Origin: Erythrobacter sp. CCH5-A1
Lineage (GTDB): Bacteria > Pseudomonadota > Alphaproteobacteria > Sphingomonadales > Sphingomonadaceae
Assembly (NCBI RefSeq): GCF_001557115.1
Contig: NZ_LSKQ01000120.1
Span: 1 to 13,220, forward strand
Direction: 5' to 3'
Length of the DNA stretch: 13,220 nt
Below, in pieces: positions 8,934 through 13,220 of the stretch (position 1 is its first letter; each line of letters starts with the position of its first letter). Position numbers and translations under genes: made by a program. The notes beneath the pieces are model-generated. The model was not told the origin of the DNA and did not search any database. It saw only the letters and a list, made by a program, of their open reading frames with translations.

Positions 8934-9734
8934 TTACCTTCCTGCAGGCACGACCACGTAAGCAGCAGTCGCCTGCCCGCTTGCGAGGTTGGGGTTGGAA
9001 ATTGTGACGGCGATTGCACCGTCCCCGGCGATGAGTTCTTCGCGAAGCGCGATCGGTGAGGAGCTGGCATTCTCGATGCGCAGGACCTTCCCGGTCATCG
9101 TCGGGCTGCGATACTCGGTGAGGAGCTGAACCTTCATATCGCCGACGTTGACCGGGGCACGGGCCGCATCGCGGATCTCGAAGCCGGTCACCGGGCGCTG
9201 TTCGAACATCGCCCTGACGAGCCCGACAGCGCGATCCTTCAACGAACCCGATGCTGTAAGGACCTCAGGCTTGGCGGAAGGATTTTCGATATCGGCATTC
9301 GCCACAAAAACCTGCACCGCACTGTCACCGCCAATCTGGCAGTCGAACTTGTAGACAAGGCCCTTTTGCGTCGTCCCGAAGAAGGAGATGTTCGGCTTTG
9401 CATAGGCTTCGGGAACCGAGATGTAGATATCGCCGCGGGTGGGTTCGTGGACGATCGAGAAGTCTTGACCCTCGACGCCAGTTTGCACTCGGGACACCGA
9501 CACAAACCGGTCATCCTTCAGCGAAATGCGCGTCAGGTCGGCCTTGGATGCCCGGCAGCGAACCTCTCCATTGTCGACGGCGAGGATGTTTTCGTCAGCA
9601 AAGGCTGGCGTGGCCGCCATGACGAAGCCGACCGAGAAAAGCGCAGCGCCAAGCCCACGAAGAAAATGGCTGTCGATGCGGAAAAGCAACGGCGCGCCTG
9701 AGGCAAGGCAGAGCGTCGAGACAGAAAAGGTCAT
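8934..9734 (-). CDS. traK: TraK, VirB9-like secretin-type core protein
   Basis: TraK forms the outer-membrane core ring with TraV and TraB. The product is 266 aa; F TraK is about 242 aa. The N-terminal leader is long, with an unusual polar/hydrophobic prefix (1-25) before the signal-like segment LRGLGAALFSVGFVMAATPAFA, with likely cleavage after A46. An in-frame TTG within the prefix could give a shorter signal peptide, but ATG 9734 is in an ATGA overlap with traE and is preferred. The mature part begins DENILAVDNGEVRCRASKADLTRISL, similar to the N-domain of secretin-like TraK proteins, and continues with ISVPEAY and FFGTTQKGLVYKF. It ends with the C-terminal LREELIAGDGAIAVTISN block, characteristic of TraK, that binds TraB. 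Confidence 0.93.
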   Translation of the reverse strand: MTFSVSTLCLASGAPLLFRIDSHFLRGLGAALFSVGFVMAATPAFADENILAVDNGEVRCRASKADLTRISLKDDRFVSVSRVQTGVEGQDFSIVHEPTRGDIYISVPEAYAKPNISFFGTTQKGLVYKFDCQIGGDSAVQVFVANADIENPSAKPEVLTASGSLKDRAVGLVRAMFEQRPVTGFEIRDAARAPVNVGDMKVQLLTEYRSPTMTGKVLRIENASSSPIALREELIAGDGAIAVTISNPNLASGQATAAYVVVPAGR

Positions 9735-10297
9735 TGGTTCGCTCCTTCCTTCTTAACGACGACACCAAACCCCTTCAGGCGCAGCGACACGCCGGTGTAG
9801 GTCCAGTGAAATTCGAAGATCTTGTGCTCGCGGCGCACGTCCTTGGATCCGACGATGGTATGAAGGACGCCTCCGACCTGGCTGGTGAGGTTTTCAGGGT
9901 CCGTGCGGATCCAGTTGATCGTGACAAACTGGGTAACCTGAGAGCCCTCCTGCTCCGCCACGATCCTCAAGAGCTTGGCCTTGAGAGCCCCGCGCGCCTC
10001 CGGCGCGGAAATGGCAACGATGCCATCAAGCCAGTATTGGAGTGTTTCGGGCGAGCGGTTGAGCGCAAGCTGCGCGGTGTCGCGGGTCACAGCCTCAAGA
10101 TACTCGGGCGTGAGCGCCGCAGAGCTCAGCGTCATCTGGCTGGGCAGGATGGGCTGCAGCACAACCTCGCGGTCCCGCGTCGATGCCGCGGTGAACATAA
10201 CCACCACGAGAATGCCGAGCACGAAACAGATGAGCGCAAGCAGGTTGCGTTGCTTGAGGGTCCGCTGCGACGCCTCGTGGGCAAAAGAGATTTCCAT
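9731..10297 (-). CDS. traE: TraE, VirB8-like inner-membrane protein
   Basis: TraE is the VirB8-like subunit of F-type systems, a bitopic inner-membrane protein whose periplasmic domain helps assemble the pilus platform. The product is 188 aa, matching F TraE (188 aa). A short basic cytoplasmic segment precedes a single membrane helix at about 18-37 (NLLALICFVLGILVVVMF). The periplasmic domain includes the family pattern LTPEYLEAVTRDTAQLALNRSPE (about 62-84) and LKAKLLRIV, followed by the NTF2-like beta-rich end FVTINWIRTDPEN...FEFHWTYTGVSLRLKGF. It is separated from traL by one base and shares an ATGA overlap with traK. Confidence 0.95.
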   Translation of the reverse strand: MEISFAHEASQRTLKQRNLLALICFVLGILVVVMFTAASTRDREVVLQPILPSQMTLSSAALTPEYLEAVTRDTAQLALNRSPETLQYWLDGIVAISAPEARGALKAKLLRIVAEQEGSQVTQFVTINWIRTDPENLTSQVGGVLHTIVGSKDVRREHKIFEFHWTYTGVSLRLKGFGVVVKKEGANQ

Positions 10298-10298
10298 A

Positions 10299-10583
10299 TC
10301 AGCCCGCCATCACACGAAGATGAGATGGCGGAGCGACCTTCAGACCGAAGAATTCTCCCGGCAAATGCCAATAGGCAAAATGCAGGACCCAATGCATCGA
10401 ACGCCCAGCTTTGACCTTGCGATAGCCGAACCACGCAGCCAGGGCCAAAAGGAGCCCGATGACAACGTGCTGAGCGAGAATTCCCCATGTGAAGGGTATG
10501 ACCATCACGAGGAATTCATCGAGGGTCCAGAACCCGATCAGCTCTGGATCGTCGAGATGTTTTGGGATCGAATACTGGTCCAA
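10299..10583 (-). CDS. traL: TraL, inner-membrane pilus assembly protein (VirB3-like)
   Basis: TraL is a small inner-membrane protein of the pilus assembly platform, comparable to VirB3. The product is 94 aa (F TraL is about 91 aa). The N-terminal YSIPKHLDDPELIGFWTLDEF (4-24) matches the family start, followed by a long hydrophobic region (about 22-55, likely two helices) and a C-terminal part containing HWVLHFAYWHLPG. The start codon is TTG at 10583-10581: there is no ATG or GTG nearby, an in-frame TGA lies only two codons upstream (10589-10587), and a GGAG ribosome site sits 7 nt before the TTG. A weak start may hold TraL below pilin levels. It is 89 bp after traA and 1 bp before traE. Confidence 0.94.
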   Translation of the reverse strand: MDQYSIPKHLDDPELIGFWTLDEFLVMVIPFTWGILAQHVVIGLLLALAAWFGYRKVKAGRSMHWVLHFAYWHLPGEFFGLKVAPPSHLRVMAG

Positions 10584-10624
10584 GGATCAACTCCGCCAGA
10601 GAGAGGACAAGGAGCAGCCGCCAG

Positions 10625-10646
10625 AAGGGTGAACTGCGGTACCCTT
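10625..10646 (-). other. Hairpin in the traA-traL gap
   Basis: In the 89-bp gap after the pilin gene the minus strand has AAGGGT, a 10-nt loop and ACCCTT, a perfect 6-bp stem. No T-run follows, so it is not a standard intrinsic terminator. Between a pilin gene and the assembly genes such a stem could protect the traA message 3' end or act as a partial attenuator. That role is inferred from position. Confidence 0.45.
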
Positions 10647-10672
10647 GCCACCATGAAGCGAGGGGGCAGGGG

Positions 10673-10990
10673 TCAGACCGTGCCGGTCACCGAGGCGGTG
10701 ACGATCGGAATGCCGGTCCCGGCTCCGACGCCGACGCCAACCGGGATTGCGACCTGACCGAGCGAAAAGCGGCCCGACGCCAGCGCAACGATGCCGCCAG
10801 CGAGCGAGAGCACCGTGATGATCCGGCCACCGGAGCCTTCAAGGAAGCCGGTGAACTGGGCAAGAGCGGTGTTGAAGGTCGTGTCGGCTCCCGCCATCGC
10901 GGCATCAGCGCCGAACACGCTGGCGGCTGCGAGCGCCGCAATCGCAACAGCAAGTGTGCCGCTGCGATTCTTCAGATCGAGTGTTGTCAT
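10673..10990 (-). CDS. traA: TraA, conjugative pilin precursor
   Basis: This is the pilus subunit precursor, first gene of the transfer operon. From ATG 10990 it is 105 aa; an AAAGGGAAA ribosome site (11004-10996) has its GGGA core 7 nt upstream. The precursor has a basic n-region (KNR), a hydrophobic leader and a likely leader-peptidase site after ADAAMA (residue 33). This leaves a mature peptide of about 72 aa with two hydrophobic segments: about 56-70 (RIITVLSLAGGIVALA) and about 78-100 (glycine/valine-rich, LGQVAIPVGVGVGAG). They are separated by the short basic loop SGRF, the usual pilin hairpin topology. The short hydroxyl-rich tail TASVTGTV could be trimmed by the TraF-type peptidase. 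The start at 11065 is rejected because it adds an unlikely polar extension across the ribosome site. Confidence 0.92.
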   Translation of the reverse strand: MTTLDLKNRSGTLAVAIAALAAASVFGADAAMAGADTTFNTALAQFTGFLEGSGGRIITVLSLAGGIVALASGRFSLGQVAIPVGVGVGAGTGIPIVTASVTGTV

Positions 10991-11116
10991 CGAGATTTCC
11001 CTTTCGGTTGGATGCTGGCGTCTGCCGCCAAAGCCAAAGTCCTCCCGAGGGACACCATTTCTCAAACATTAGATTCGATGCTGAACGCCGATTCGTGCGA
11101 CTGGTCCGGAATACGC
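10991..11116 (-). promoter_or_regulatory. traA leader and presumed tra promoter region
   Basis: This 126-bp stretch lies between the traA start and the 22-bp dyad array and must carry the main tra promoter if the operon starts at traA. I see the traA ribosome site at 11004-10996, an imperfect dyad around 11038-11054 (GTCC...GGAC) and an AT-rich patch near 11062-11076 containing TAATGT on the minus strand. I cannot find a convincing -35/-10 pair with good spacing, so the promoter may depend on an activator or on a non-housekeeping sigma factor. Confidence 0.4.
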
Positions 11117-11261
11117 AACCAGGGTGGTTGCGATTCGCGGCCACCCTGGTCGGAATATGCAACCACCCCGGTCAGGATTCCCGACCGGGGCGGTCGAGAT
11201 TCCTGACCACCCCGGTCGTGTTTTCCGACCACCCCGGTCGGGATTCCTGACCAGGGCTTTC
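11117..11261. repeat. Array of interrupted dyads with a 22-bp period (iteron-like operator)
   Basis: Six units each contain an interrupted dyad RRCC-N5-GGYY, with centres exactly 22 bp apart: 11117-11129, 11139-11151, 11161-11173, 11183-11195, 11205-11217 and 11227-11239. A seventh, degenerate copy is at 11249-11261. The common form is GACCACCCCGGTC, identical in units 5 and 6 and differing at one base in unit 3. Units 1 and 4 carry a G-rich centre (AGGGT, GGGGC) in place of the C-rich one, so neighbouring units can also pair with each other as larger hairpins (for example 11162-11173 with 11183-11194). The 9-bp spacers tend to GGATTCC-like sequence. Two helical turns per unit means all sites face the same side of the DNA, as expected for cooperative binding of a dimeric regulator. 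Probable ligands are the products encoded immediately to the right. The region could also be part of oriT. Confidence 0.85.
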
Positions 11262-11304
11262 CGCCCGCCAGAAAAAATGATTCGAGCCCGTGTCGGAAAG
11301 GGAT

Positions 11305-11320
11305 GAAGGGGCAACCCTTC
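11305..11320 (+). promoter_or_regulatory. GNRA-loop hairpin in the leader of the regulator cluster
   Basis: The rightward leader has GAAGGG-GCAA-CCCTTC: a perfect 6-bp stem closed by a GCAA tetraloop, a member of the very stable GNRA class. It ends 9 nt before the AGGAAGG ribosome site (11330-11336) of the first regulator gene, so it would form in the 5' untranslated RNA and could shield the message end or influence translation. Confidence 0.5.
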
Positions 11321-11345
11321 TGGAAACACAGGAAGGTGGTTGGAC

Positions 11346-11735
11346 GTGAAGCAGAACACGCATGTCGCGCACGAAATCGCCGTCAGCCAGGCCGCCTTCG
11401 AACAGATCGTAAAGGCCATCGCTTCGTTGAGCCTGGTACAGGGGCGGTTCGTAAAATTCAAAGACGTACTGCTCTATGCTCTGGCGACGTATCAAGAGCC
11501 GAAGGAGGCCCATGCAGCGGGATTGGTGGCTCAACTCCCCGTGGACGGCCCGATTCGCATTTATGTTCGGCTCAATTCGAAGGAAAATGCGGCTATCGAA
11601 CGACTTAAAGGGGAGTTGAACGCCACGACGAAAGTCCATTGCGGCGTACGTGAAACCCTTGTGTTCTGTGCCTTGCTCGTTGCGCAGGGTGAATTTTCCA
11701 CTTGCAAAATTCCCGTCGGCAAGATCACACTATGA
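11346..11735 (+). CDS. Putative tandem ribbon-helix-helix DNA-binding protein (TraY-like layout)
   Basis: From GTG 11346 the product is 129 aa. The ribosome site AGGAAGGTGG (11330-11339) suits GTG 11346 better than the in-frame TTG at 11340. Two halves look alike. Half 1: strand EIAVS (10-14), helix AAFEQIVKAI, helix KFKDVLLYALATY (38-49). Half 2: strand IRIYVRL (70-76), helix SKENAAIERLKGEL, helix GVRETLVFCALLVA (100-113). The shared pattern [DE]-x-L-[LV]-[YF]-[AC] in the second helix supports an internal duplication. Tandem ribbon-helix-helix in about 130 aa is the architecture of F TraY, the oriT/tra-promoter regulator, but I see no direct sequence identity with it. It lies divergent from traA beside the dyad array, which is its most likely target. 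Family assignment is by predicted fold only. Confidence 0.7.
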   Translation: MKQNTHVAHEIAVSQAAFEQIVKAIASLSLVQGRFVKFKDVLLYALATYQEPKEAHAAGLVAQLPVDGPIRIYVRLNSKENAAIERLKGELNATTKVHCGVRETLVFCALLVAQGEFSTCKIPVGKITL

Positions 11736-11766
11736 AATTGCATGGTGTGGCATGGCGGAGGCATGG

Positions 11767-12258
11767 ATGTGCAAGGGGACGCCCGAGGTCGTGGGAGTAA
11801 AGGCCCATAGCGTAAACAGAATGTACGCTGCTCTGATCAAGGAACAGATGCAGCTACGCCATACGAGCCTCAGAAAAATGGCCGATGAAGGGGTCCTGAA
11901 ACGGAGCCGCCGTGCAGGCTTCTTTGAAAGGCTCGAAGCCGGCAGCCTGACCATCGACGAATTCCAGAGAGTTCTGGTCCACCTCGAAATCGACCCGATC
12001 AGGGCCGGCCTCGTTCTGCTCTGCTACAACAGTGCAAGCTCATACGAAGATCCATGCTGCGAGACGACTGCCCTGGTAGCGGTCGCTCTCGCGGCTCGTC
12101 TTCCGAGCGAGTTGGCAGCATGCGAGGGACAATTCGAAACCATCCGCCAAAGCCTGTGCGATACGATTGCGAAGAAGACATCCTCCGCCATCGCCAAGCA
12201 TCATATGTCACTCGAAAACCGGCATAACGGCGGCGGATTTGAACATGCTTACGCCTGA
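11767..12258 (+). CDS. Putative helix-turn-helix regulator
   Basis: From ATG 11767 the product is 163 aa; GGAGG (11757-11761) lies 5 nt upstream. In-frame ATGs at 11752 and further back are less well placed. I do not recognise a named family. Residues about 20-82 look like a divergent Cro/CI-type helix-turn-helix domain: LIKEQMQLRHTSLRKMADEG, then RSRRAGFFERLEAGSLTIDEF and VLVHLEIDPIRAGLVL. The F-x-RLE-x-G-x-LTIDEF-x-RVL pattern resembles helices 3-4 of XRE-like repressors. The C-terminal half (about 95-163) is alanine-rich and helical with several cysteines (C97, C98, C119, C131) and may mediate dimerisation. The gene follows the putative tandem ribbon-helix-helix gene by 31 bp and precedes a second ribbon-helix-helix gene, so it probably belongs to a three-gene regulatory operon. 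Confidence 0.72.
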   Translation: MCKGTPEVVGVKAHSVNRMYAALIKEQMQLRHTSLRKMADEGVLKRSRRAGFFERLEAGSLTIDEFQRVLVHLEIDPIRAGLVLLCYNSASSYEDPCCETTALVAVALAARLPSELAACEGQFETIRQSLCDTIAKKTSSAIAKHHMSLENRHNGGGFEHAYA

Positions 12259-12288
12259 TGCTTTCGCCGCGAGGGGCGACGACGCTTC

Positions 12289-12564
12289 ATGATGGGGTGC
12301 GTGACTGGTCACGAACACCTCGCCCCTGGCATTGCGCCAGCAGCAGAAGGCGCTCGGAACCGGAAAGCAGACCAAAGACGCAGGCGCCGCAAAGACGGCT
12401 TGCGCCCCCTCGAAATCTGGCTGCCGGCGGCCCTGATCGAGAAGATTGACCAGCTGAAAGGGGATGATCTGTCGTCGCGGGAAGCGGTCATCGCAGCGAT
12501 CGTGGCTACCACGCTCAGCGTCAGATCACCTGAACCATCAGAAGGACAACCGATGATGCTCTGA
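12289..12564 (+). CDS. Putative ribbon-helix-helix DNA-binding protein
   Basis: The product is 91 aa. A basic N-terminal arm (RNRKADQRRRRRKD, 23-36) precedes a compact ribbon-helix-helix motif: strand RPLEIWLP (39-46), helix AALIEKIDQLKG (47-58), turn DDLSSR, helix EAVIAAIVATTL (65-76). A short Pro/Ser/Glu tail follows. The pattern is that of Arc/CopG-type dimeric repressors. The ATG at 12289 has a GAGGGG sequence 12 nt upstream, rather far; an adjacent ATG at 12292 or a GTG at 12301 are alternatives that leave the motif unchanged. It is the last gene of the rightward cluster and is followed within a few bases by a strong terminator. It may bind the dyad array near traA or its own promoter; no target can be read directly. 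Confidence 0.75.
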   Translation: MMGCVTGHEHLAPGIAPAAEGARNRKADQRRRRRKDGLRPLEIWLPAALIEKIDQLKGDDLSSREAVIAAIVATTLSVRSPEPSEGQPMML

Positions 12565-12569
12565 ATCTG

Positions 12570-12601
12570 AAAGGGGGCCCCGCGCCAACGGGCCCCCCTT
12601 T
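12570..12601 (+). terminator. Intrinsic terminator after the regulator cluster
   Basis: Five bases after the last stop codon, AAAGGGGGCCC (12570-12580) pairs with GGGCCCCCCTTT (12590-12601) around a 9-nt loop. This gives an 11-bp, mostly GC stem with one extra C and a short T-run. It closes the rightward operon and is symmetric enough to act on leftward transcripts as well. Confidence 0.88.
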
Positions 12602-12760
12602 AACGCATCCTGTTGCCAGAGCGCCAAGTACGCCTCGCTTTCTAGCAACAGACCGAATGGCAAACAAGCGCTTCTGCGCGCAATGAAACGCGCCCGAACG
12701 CTGCCGGGGATCGCCGCACCAGCTGGTGCATATGAAAGGGAGGTCAGCGACGCAGACATG

Positions 12761-12787
12761 AAAAACCCGGGCAGCGCCCGGGCCTTT
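12761..12787 (-). terminator. Intrinsic terminator, strongest on the minus strand
   Basis: CCCGGGC (12766-12772), a 3-nt loop and GCCCGGG (12776-12782) form a perfect 7-bp GC stem. On the minus strand the stem is followed by TTTTT (12765-12761), the classic intrinsic layout, so it would stop leftward transcription arriving from the insertion sequence. On the plus strand only a short CCTTT follows. Confidence 0.75.
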
Positions 12788-12857
12788 CGAAGGAAGCTGT
12801 AATTTGCCGCGCCAAAGCGTGGCTAGAGACACCGGCAAGCTACCTGCTCCCTGACAA

Positions 12858-12898
12858 CTTGCAAGCATTTTTCGCAAGGTTTGCGAGCAATGTTTTTT
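12858..12898. repeat. TTGCRAGCA direct repeats with overlapping dyads
   Basis: TTGCAAGCATTTTT (12859-12872) recurs as TTGCGAGCAATGTTTTTT (12881-12898), with starts 22 bp apart. Within the block, CTTGCAAG (12858-12865) is a perfect palindrome and CGCAA-GGT-TTGCG (12873-12885) a small dyad. The T-rich tracts make it locally AT-rich in a GC-rich setting. No promoter or gene start can be tied to it. Confidence 0.5.
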
Positions 12899-13027
12899 GT
12901 CTGTGCCGCACCTCAGGACTGAGGGAGCGAGGGAATGGCATTTGTCCAAAATCAGACGGCCTGGGAGGTCAATAACCGACGCAGGGGAGAGCCAGCATCG
13001 ATCGGCTCGTGCTTGCGAAATCTGGAC

Positions 13028-13047: not shown

Positions 13048-13220
13048 GGGTCGTGTCCGTCAACGTGGTGTAAATTCGGTTGTGGCCAGCGGGCTGCATT
13101 TTCAGGCGGCCTTTGGTGTAATCTGTAGCGGCTGAGCCTCCTCGATGGTTGGTGTGGCGAGCGCTGCCATGCCCTCGATCTGCATGTAGCGGTGCTGGAG
13201 CTGGTATTCGTCGTTTTGCT
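13048..13220 (-). mobile_element. IS256-family insertion sequence, one end (partial)
   Basis: The transposase C-terminus below runs into this end. A plausible terminal sequence starts at about 13048-13050 (GGGTCGTGTCCGTCAACG..., then TGGTGTAAATT), leaving about 50 bp between the end and the transposase stop, as is usual in this family. The opposite end lies outside the window, so the terminal inverted repeat and the target duplication cannot be confirmed; the boundary is approximate. Confidence 0.7.
13102..13220 (-). CDS. IS256-family transposase, C-terminal end (partial)
   Basis: The minus strand from the window edge reads QNDEYQLQHRYMQIEGMA, then ALATPTIEEAQPLQITPKAA and a TGA at 13104-13102. 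The partial codon before it ends in AG, compatible with a preceding Glu. EQNDE-(W/Y)-x2-Q-x-RYM-x2-E is the typical C-terminal signature of IS256-family (MuLE/DDE) transposases. Only the last 38 residues are present, beyond the catalytic DDE region, so activity cannot be judged. The gene enters the window from the right, facing the tra region, and the minus-strand terminator at 12761-12787 would limit read-through. Confidence 0.82.
   Translation of the reverse strand, partial: QNDEYQLQHRYMQIEGMAALATPTIEEAQPLQITPKAA

Follow-up and report, generated by a model that had tools for sequence, protein, structure and literature searches.

In lambdoid phages, immunity regions composed of a repressor gene and its operator array are swapped as cassettes between similar elements. 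Among conjugative plasmids, a multi-site arrangement is known for RcoLS20 of Bacillus subtilis plasmid pLS20, which has several motif copies in two operators, together with overlapping divergent promoters for the conjugation genes and for the regulator's own gene (PMC4207663). In this work, a 13,220-nucleotide stretch of contig NZ_LSKQ01000120.1 of Erythrobacter sp. CCH5-A1 (hereafter, the window) was analyzed, in which an array of short repeats sits between traA, the first gene of a leftward F-type transfer (tra) operon, and the rightward genes orf1, orf2, and orf3; the regulator genes are divergent from the tra operon and several array sites lie between. As in pLS20 (PMC4207663), a predicted helix-turn-helix regulator, many sites, and a divergent conjugation operon occur together. 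As in the lambdoid immunity regions, the regulator and the operator array differ between relatives as a cassette. Judging from comparative sequence data, the array is likely (with a probability of about 0.58) a cooperative multi-site operator of an exchangeable conjugation switch, with the product of orf2 as its predicted binder. The features on which this reading relies are as follows:

10299..10583, minus strand: traL, the anchor for finding relatives (profile matches)
10673..10990, minus strand: traA, pilin gene that opens the leftward tra operon (sub-threshold matches to TrbC/VirB2 and TraA models; gene order in relatives)
11117-11129, 11139-11151, 11161-11173, 11183-11195, 11205-11217, 11227-11239, with a seventh unit at 11249-11261: array dyads, centres 22 bp apart
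11346..11735, plus strand: orf1, predicted to be a tandem ribbon-helix-helix protein similar to F TraY (start taken from an annotated relative)
11767..12258, plus strand: orf2, XRE-type regulator, proposed array reader
12289..12564, plus strand: orf3, small protein with the look of a single ribbon-helix-helix (matches below curated cut-offs)

The array (11117..11261) consists of six 13-bp RRCC-N5-GGYY dyads with asymmetric centres and a degenerate seventh unit (GACC-AGGGC-TTTC), in which one arm is lost, all at a pitch of exactly 22 bp. The motif occurs 16 times in the window against 5.13 expected (standard deviation 2.35; maximum of 200 shuffles, 14), and six of these matches are the array units, whose successive starts are 22 bp apart. 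Tandem Repeats Finder reported a period of 22 with 5.5 copies and 69% matches, and the dyads were significant at p = 0.02 when unit columns were permuted with the period kept. The motif count and the repeat search therefore agree with the initial annotation, which had described six dyads and a degenerate seventh at this pitch. It had also pointed to a switch of the central five bases between C-rich and G-rich forms; the letters do differ, but units 1, 4, and 7 are oriented one way and units 2, 3, 5, and 6 the opposite way, and because AGGGT is the reverse complement of ACCCT, the switch is largely an inversion of units. Scans of the window for Rfam families (gathering threshold) and tRNA genes gave no match.

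For the comparative analysis, 397 genomes of the family were searched with traL as an anchor, which was found in 79 genomes at 104 places. Ninety of these places were taken in and three were dropped as repeats of loci already included; the final set of 103 loci (the fetched places, the window, and 15 other loci) was grouped into 47 clusters by 8-mers shared in the array part. The tra gene order, traA, orf1, and orf2 are common to plasmids of Blastomonas, Sphingopyxis, Qipengyuania, Porphyrobacter, Aurantiacibacter, and one member of Erythrobacteraceae, and a Sphingopyxis metagenome-assembled genome is also among the relatives. The plasmid record closest to the window is NZ_CP020084 of Blastomonas fulva (90.8% identity over query bases 1-2149). 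The MOBF relaxase match of this plasmid (143744-144551) is split into three pieces, so the gene looks broken, and PLSDB classes the plasmid as non-mobilizable.

The period was tested as the best self-match at lags 20-22, compared with dinucleotide shuffles, in a 450-bp stretch upstream of traA. It reached p ≤ 0.01 in 32 of the 47 clusters and p ≤ 0.05 in 38, while a control stretch further right, inside the regulator genes, gave one cluster (four at 0.05). Lags 41-44 reached p ≤ 0.01 in 25 clusters, and eight other lag groups in 0-2. Moreover, in stretches inside traE/traK of 13 loci, 20-22 was never the best lag (21 was third in one of them). A chance repeat, considered as an explanation of the array, was ruled out by the period tests across clusters together with the coding control. 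Of the 39 arrays taken for closer analysis, 19 have their best pitch at 22, 18 at 21, and two at 20; the dyad test covered the same number of arrays, since the remaining eight clusters had no period. Dyad symmetry was significant in few arrays (counted below), and hence pitch and place are the constant features of the array, and the dyad is not; the large clusters L069 and L082, in which orf1 was not found, have no dyad symmetry on top of the period.

The initial annotation had named the absence of the dyads and their spacing upstream of traA in close relatives as a refutation, and this check does not refute it, although the period is not significant in every relative. The two closest ones, L001 and L002, have the array letters, spacing, and dyads of the window. 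L003-L005, whose tra genes are nearly the same as those of the window, retain the 22-bp pitch with quite different array letters, whereas in L006/L007 (p 0.086) and L012 (p 0.84) the period is not significant. The selection on half-sites proposed earlier holds only among close relatives; between lineages the half-sites change, whereas place and pitch stay. The combination of a fixed pitch and free letters suggests selection on the geometry of a protein row and not on the sequence.

As regards the range of the array, a wider search revealed a TraL match in 13 of 385 genomes of the class, one of them G001. None of the 14 loci from the other 12 genomes had a 20-22 bp period at the same 450-bp place (0/14 at p ≤ 0.05), so the range of the array may be the sphingomonads. 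At a second place tried in these loci, the period was found in two of 14 (p 0.003 and 0.047); a period test over 1400 bp was too weak for the distant loci, as it missed the array of L157 (same place as L111).

That the region differs as a unit is visible in the comparison of the window with L005, for which identity was measured in 100-bp steps and which delimits the following block:

11041..12390: variable block relative to L005, comprising the array, orf1, orf2, and the start of orf3

The flanks are 89-100% identical from 9641 to 10990 and 86-99% identical from 12391 to 12990, while inside the block identity falls to 44-50% in the array stretch, 62-82% in orf1 and orf2, and 60-61% at the start of orf3. 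L002 compared with L005 gives the same block pattern. Within the block, silent sites have diverged strongly, including where hardly any residue differs; in the C-terminal part of orf2 compared with L003, 73 of 75 residues are the same and 38.5 of 53 silent sites are changed. Since silent sites have diverged while the protein is kept, acquisition of the block by recombination from a distant relative appears to be a better explanation of the pattern than rapid change in place.

Orf2 is indicated as the reader of the array by two comparisons. The exact sequence GCCCC-N7-GGGGC was found in six loci of five clusters among the 103 searched, and in the five cluster members of this class the recognition helix of orf2 agrees at 96 of 110 positions (87%), compared with 464 of 1020 (45%) for the rest of orf2 and 19 of 60 for the predicted DNA-facing residues of orf1. 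Conversely, between the window and L003, whose arrays are unrelated, the helix agrees at 6 of 11 positions (55%) and the rest of orf2 at 100 of 107 (93%), while the facing residues of orf1 agree at 5 of 6 despite the different arrays. Furthermore, the period reaches p ≤ 0.01 in nine of the 18 clusters in which orf1 was not found. Because arrays persist where no orf1 was found and the helix follows the array letters in these two comparisons, we regard orf2, with moderate confidence, as a likelier reader than orf1, its binding being predicted. Orf1 as the sole reader was considered and dropped after the same orf1-less arrays and helix comparisons, the Mantel test described below being insufficient by itself.

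According to the proposed mechanism, orf2, which carries an XRE-type DNA-binding domain, would bind as dimers, one per 22-bp unit and all on one face of the DNA, and this binding would be cooperative. Its targets would be the leftward traA operon, which it would repress, and the rightward operon that contains orf2 itself together with the TraY-like orf1. The chain of orf1 is predicted to form two strand-helix-helix units of the TraY fold; by analogy, it probably serves the relaxosome like F TraY, and it may also bind the array. With respect to an operator for a dimeric protein serving the tra operon and the divergent genes, the initial annotation is favored by the comparative evidence, the binding itself being predicted.

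Several observations weigh against the operator reading. Fifteen of the 47 clusters miss p ≤ 0.01 in the period test and nine miss 0.05, and dyad symmetry beyond the period reached p ≤ 0.05 in only 10 of 39 arrays, seven of them at p ≤ 0.01. For the TTCC..GGAA class no helix effect is seen (17/33 in the helix, 169/300 in the remainder of orf2), and both the array classes and the helix columns were picked after the alignments had been seen. In a Mantel test on 23 loci, the orf1 strands were tied to the array as much as the orf2 helix. Many loci without orf1 carry an XRE-like gene with only a putative kinship to orf2 (E 0.006 to 3), and in L025 a ribbon-helix-helix gene similar to orf3 lies further along, so a locus without orf1 need not be free of such proteins. 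Finally, no sigma-70-like promoter was matched beside the array.

A different role, raised already in the initial annotation as an oriT-type array, would make it an accessory part of the origin of transfer (oriT), in which a train of TraY-like orf1 would coat and bend the DNA and bring the MOBF relaxase to a nearby nick site, the letters providing relaxosome specificity. A MOBF relaxase match is present in 73 of 79 genomes and 13 of 14 plasmids; however, pISP1 has a clear array (p 0.003) and no detectable MOBF relaxase, half of the clusters lacking a found orf1 still have arrays, and the agreement of orf1 facing residues between the window and L003 does not follow their different arrays. In the 29 plasmid-type clusters, 8-mers above the shuffled maximum lie mostly between traA and the array (a search by exact words, weak for a diverged nick site), and apart from the traA side no nick-like word in common was found. 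This alternative is therefore not supported, and we consider it unlikely. Still less probable is a strip shared by both proteins, with orf2 occupying the G+C-rich dyads and orf1 the A+T-richer spacers, serving as an operator and a relaxosome scaffold at once. Its assumptions fit the regular alternation of dyads and spacers and the partial Mantel tests, in which orf1 and orf2 each correlate with the array independently of the other, but not the persistence of arrays where orf1 was not found. Evenly spaced repeats next to genes for small ribbon-helix-helix proteins are likewise characteristic of iteron replication origins and partition (centromere) sites. Such a function was rejected as very improbable, as no rep or par genes are annotated in the 10-kb stretches around nine relatives (the plasmid gene tables being incomplete), the array is located between traA and the divergent regulator, and it occurs on chromosomal contigs too.

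Besides the dyads, the array region is rich in GANTC, which is the CcrM site:

11072, 11090, 11132, 11176, 11198, 11242, 11279 (starts; within 11072..11283): seven GANTC sites

These are seven of the 17 GANTC sites of the window, and four of them are inside the array, in the spacers and in register. Across the 47 clusters, GANTC is rare in genes and dense in the array region (76 vs. 34.1 and 48 vs. 27.0 expected). In a comparison with all places along each of four whole plasmids, and not with intergenic regions separately, the region ranks first in CP115967, and the number of equally dense places, including the region, is two in NZ_CP020084, three in NZ_CP050250, and 16 in NZ_CP016462. The density suggests a link of transfer to cell-cycle methylation.

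A small gene following the XRE-like gene in chromosomal loci resembles, by eye, an AlpA-type excisionase, as in integrative elements; counted from traL, it is positioned at about 1131 in L098, 1161 in L112, and 1114 in L070. The alphaproteobacterial LexA box is GTTC-N7-GTTC or GAAC-N7-GAAC (PMC3091678). It was found in 58 of 64 orf1-less loci, belonging to 12 of 18 clusters (0.2 clusters expected; examples are L042, L044, L058, L069, L082, and L089), and in one of 39 plasmid-type loci. In seven of the 18 clusters one box is near traA and one near the XRE-like gene, and boxes beside the array are confined to orf1-less loci. Judging by these sites, the orf1-less elements are probably under SOS control.

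Concerning the remaining neighborhood, orf1, orf2, and orf3 each have no Pfam or NCBIfam family above cut-off, and a sequence search of solved structures with the orf1 alignment gave no convincing match (two rows, the better one at E 0.61). L002 and L005 also have orf3; in L006 and L008 its position is held by an unrelated membrane-like small protein, which L002 carries further on. For the traA leader (about 10991-11060, minus strand), folding of 13 loci as single sequences with no shuffle control gave a hairpin in which the bases immediately ahead of the start codon are paired. It is clear in L006, L008, L009, and L010 and only partly formed in the window. An IS256-family transposase starts in the window at 13048-13220, where the plasmid-backbone match stops.

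If the array is a switch, more than 30 letter sets with their readers exist side by side in nature, and regulator-operator coevolution and regulatory exclusion between plasmids become directly testable. In such a case, each letter set would be a separate self-recognition (immunity) group. It is conceivable, although we hold it only tentatively, that sphingomonad F-type elements, among them degradation plasmids such as those of the pNL1 and pCAR3 type, carry immunity regions in which a fixed-pitch, free-letter array is swapped together with an XRE reader and a TraY-like protein, sorting plasmids that are otherwise interchangeable into such groups, with a GANTC hub coupling transfer to host cell-cycle methylation.

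The locus differs from each of the systems to which it can be compared. In the lambdoid immunity regions lytic genes, and not a conjugation operon, are controlled and three units are present instead of seven, and group exclusion is here only proposed. The predicted fold of orf1 and the row of small DNA-binding proteins beside transfer genes resemble TraY at the oriT of F (PMC12117103); however, orf1 and traA are divergently oriented, the array is regular and has a greater length, and the search by exact words identified no nick site. Compared with the restriction controller C.Esp1396I, orf2 has an extra C-terminal part, and no restriction genes are annotated beside its relatives. In the open-licence literature, covered mostly by titles and abstract starts and with subscription journals mostly outside, neither an operator of sphingomonad F-type plasmids nor an even 20-22 bp row with free letters, F-type genes, and a TraY-like gene in the cassette was met. 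In pLS20, the direct motif CAGTGAAA forms two clusters separated by 75 bp, with DNA looping (PMC4207663), whereas here there is one even 20-22 bp row beside F-type genes, with a TraY-like gene in the cassette and lineage-specific letters. A multi-site regulator switch beside a divergent conjugation operon is already known from pLS20, and by analogy the even row with free letters would be a variant of it.
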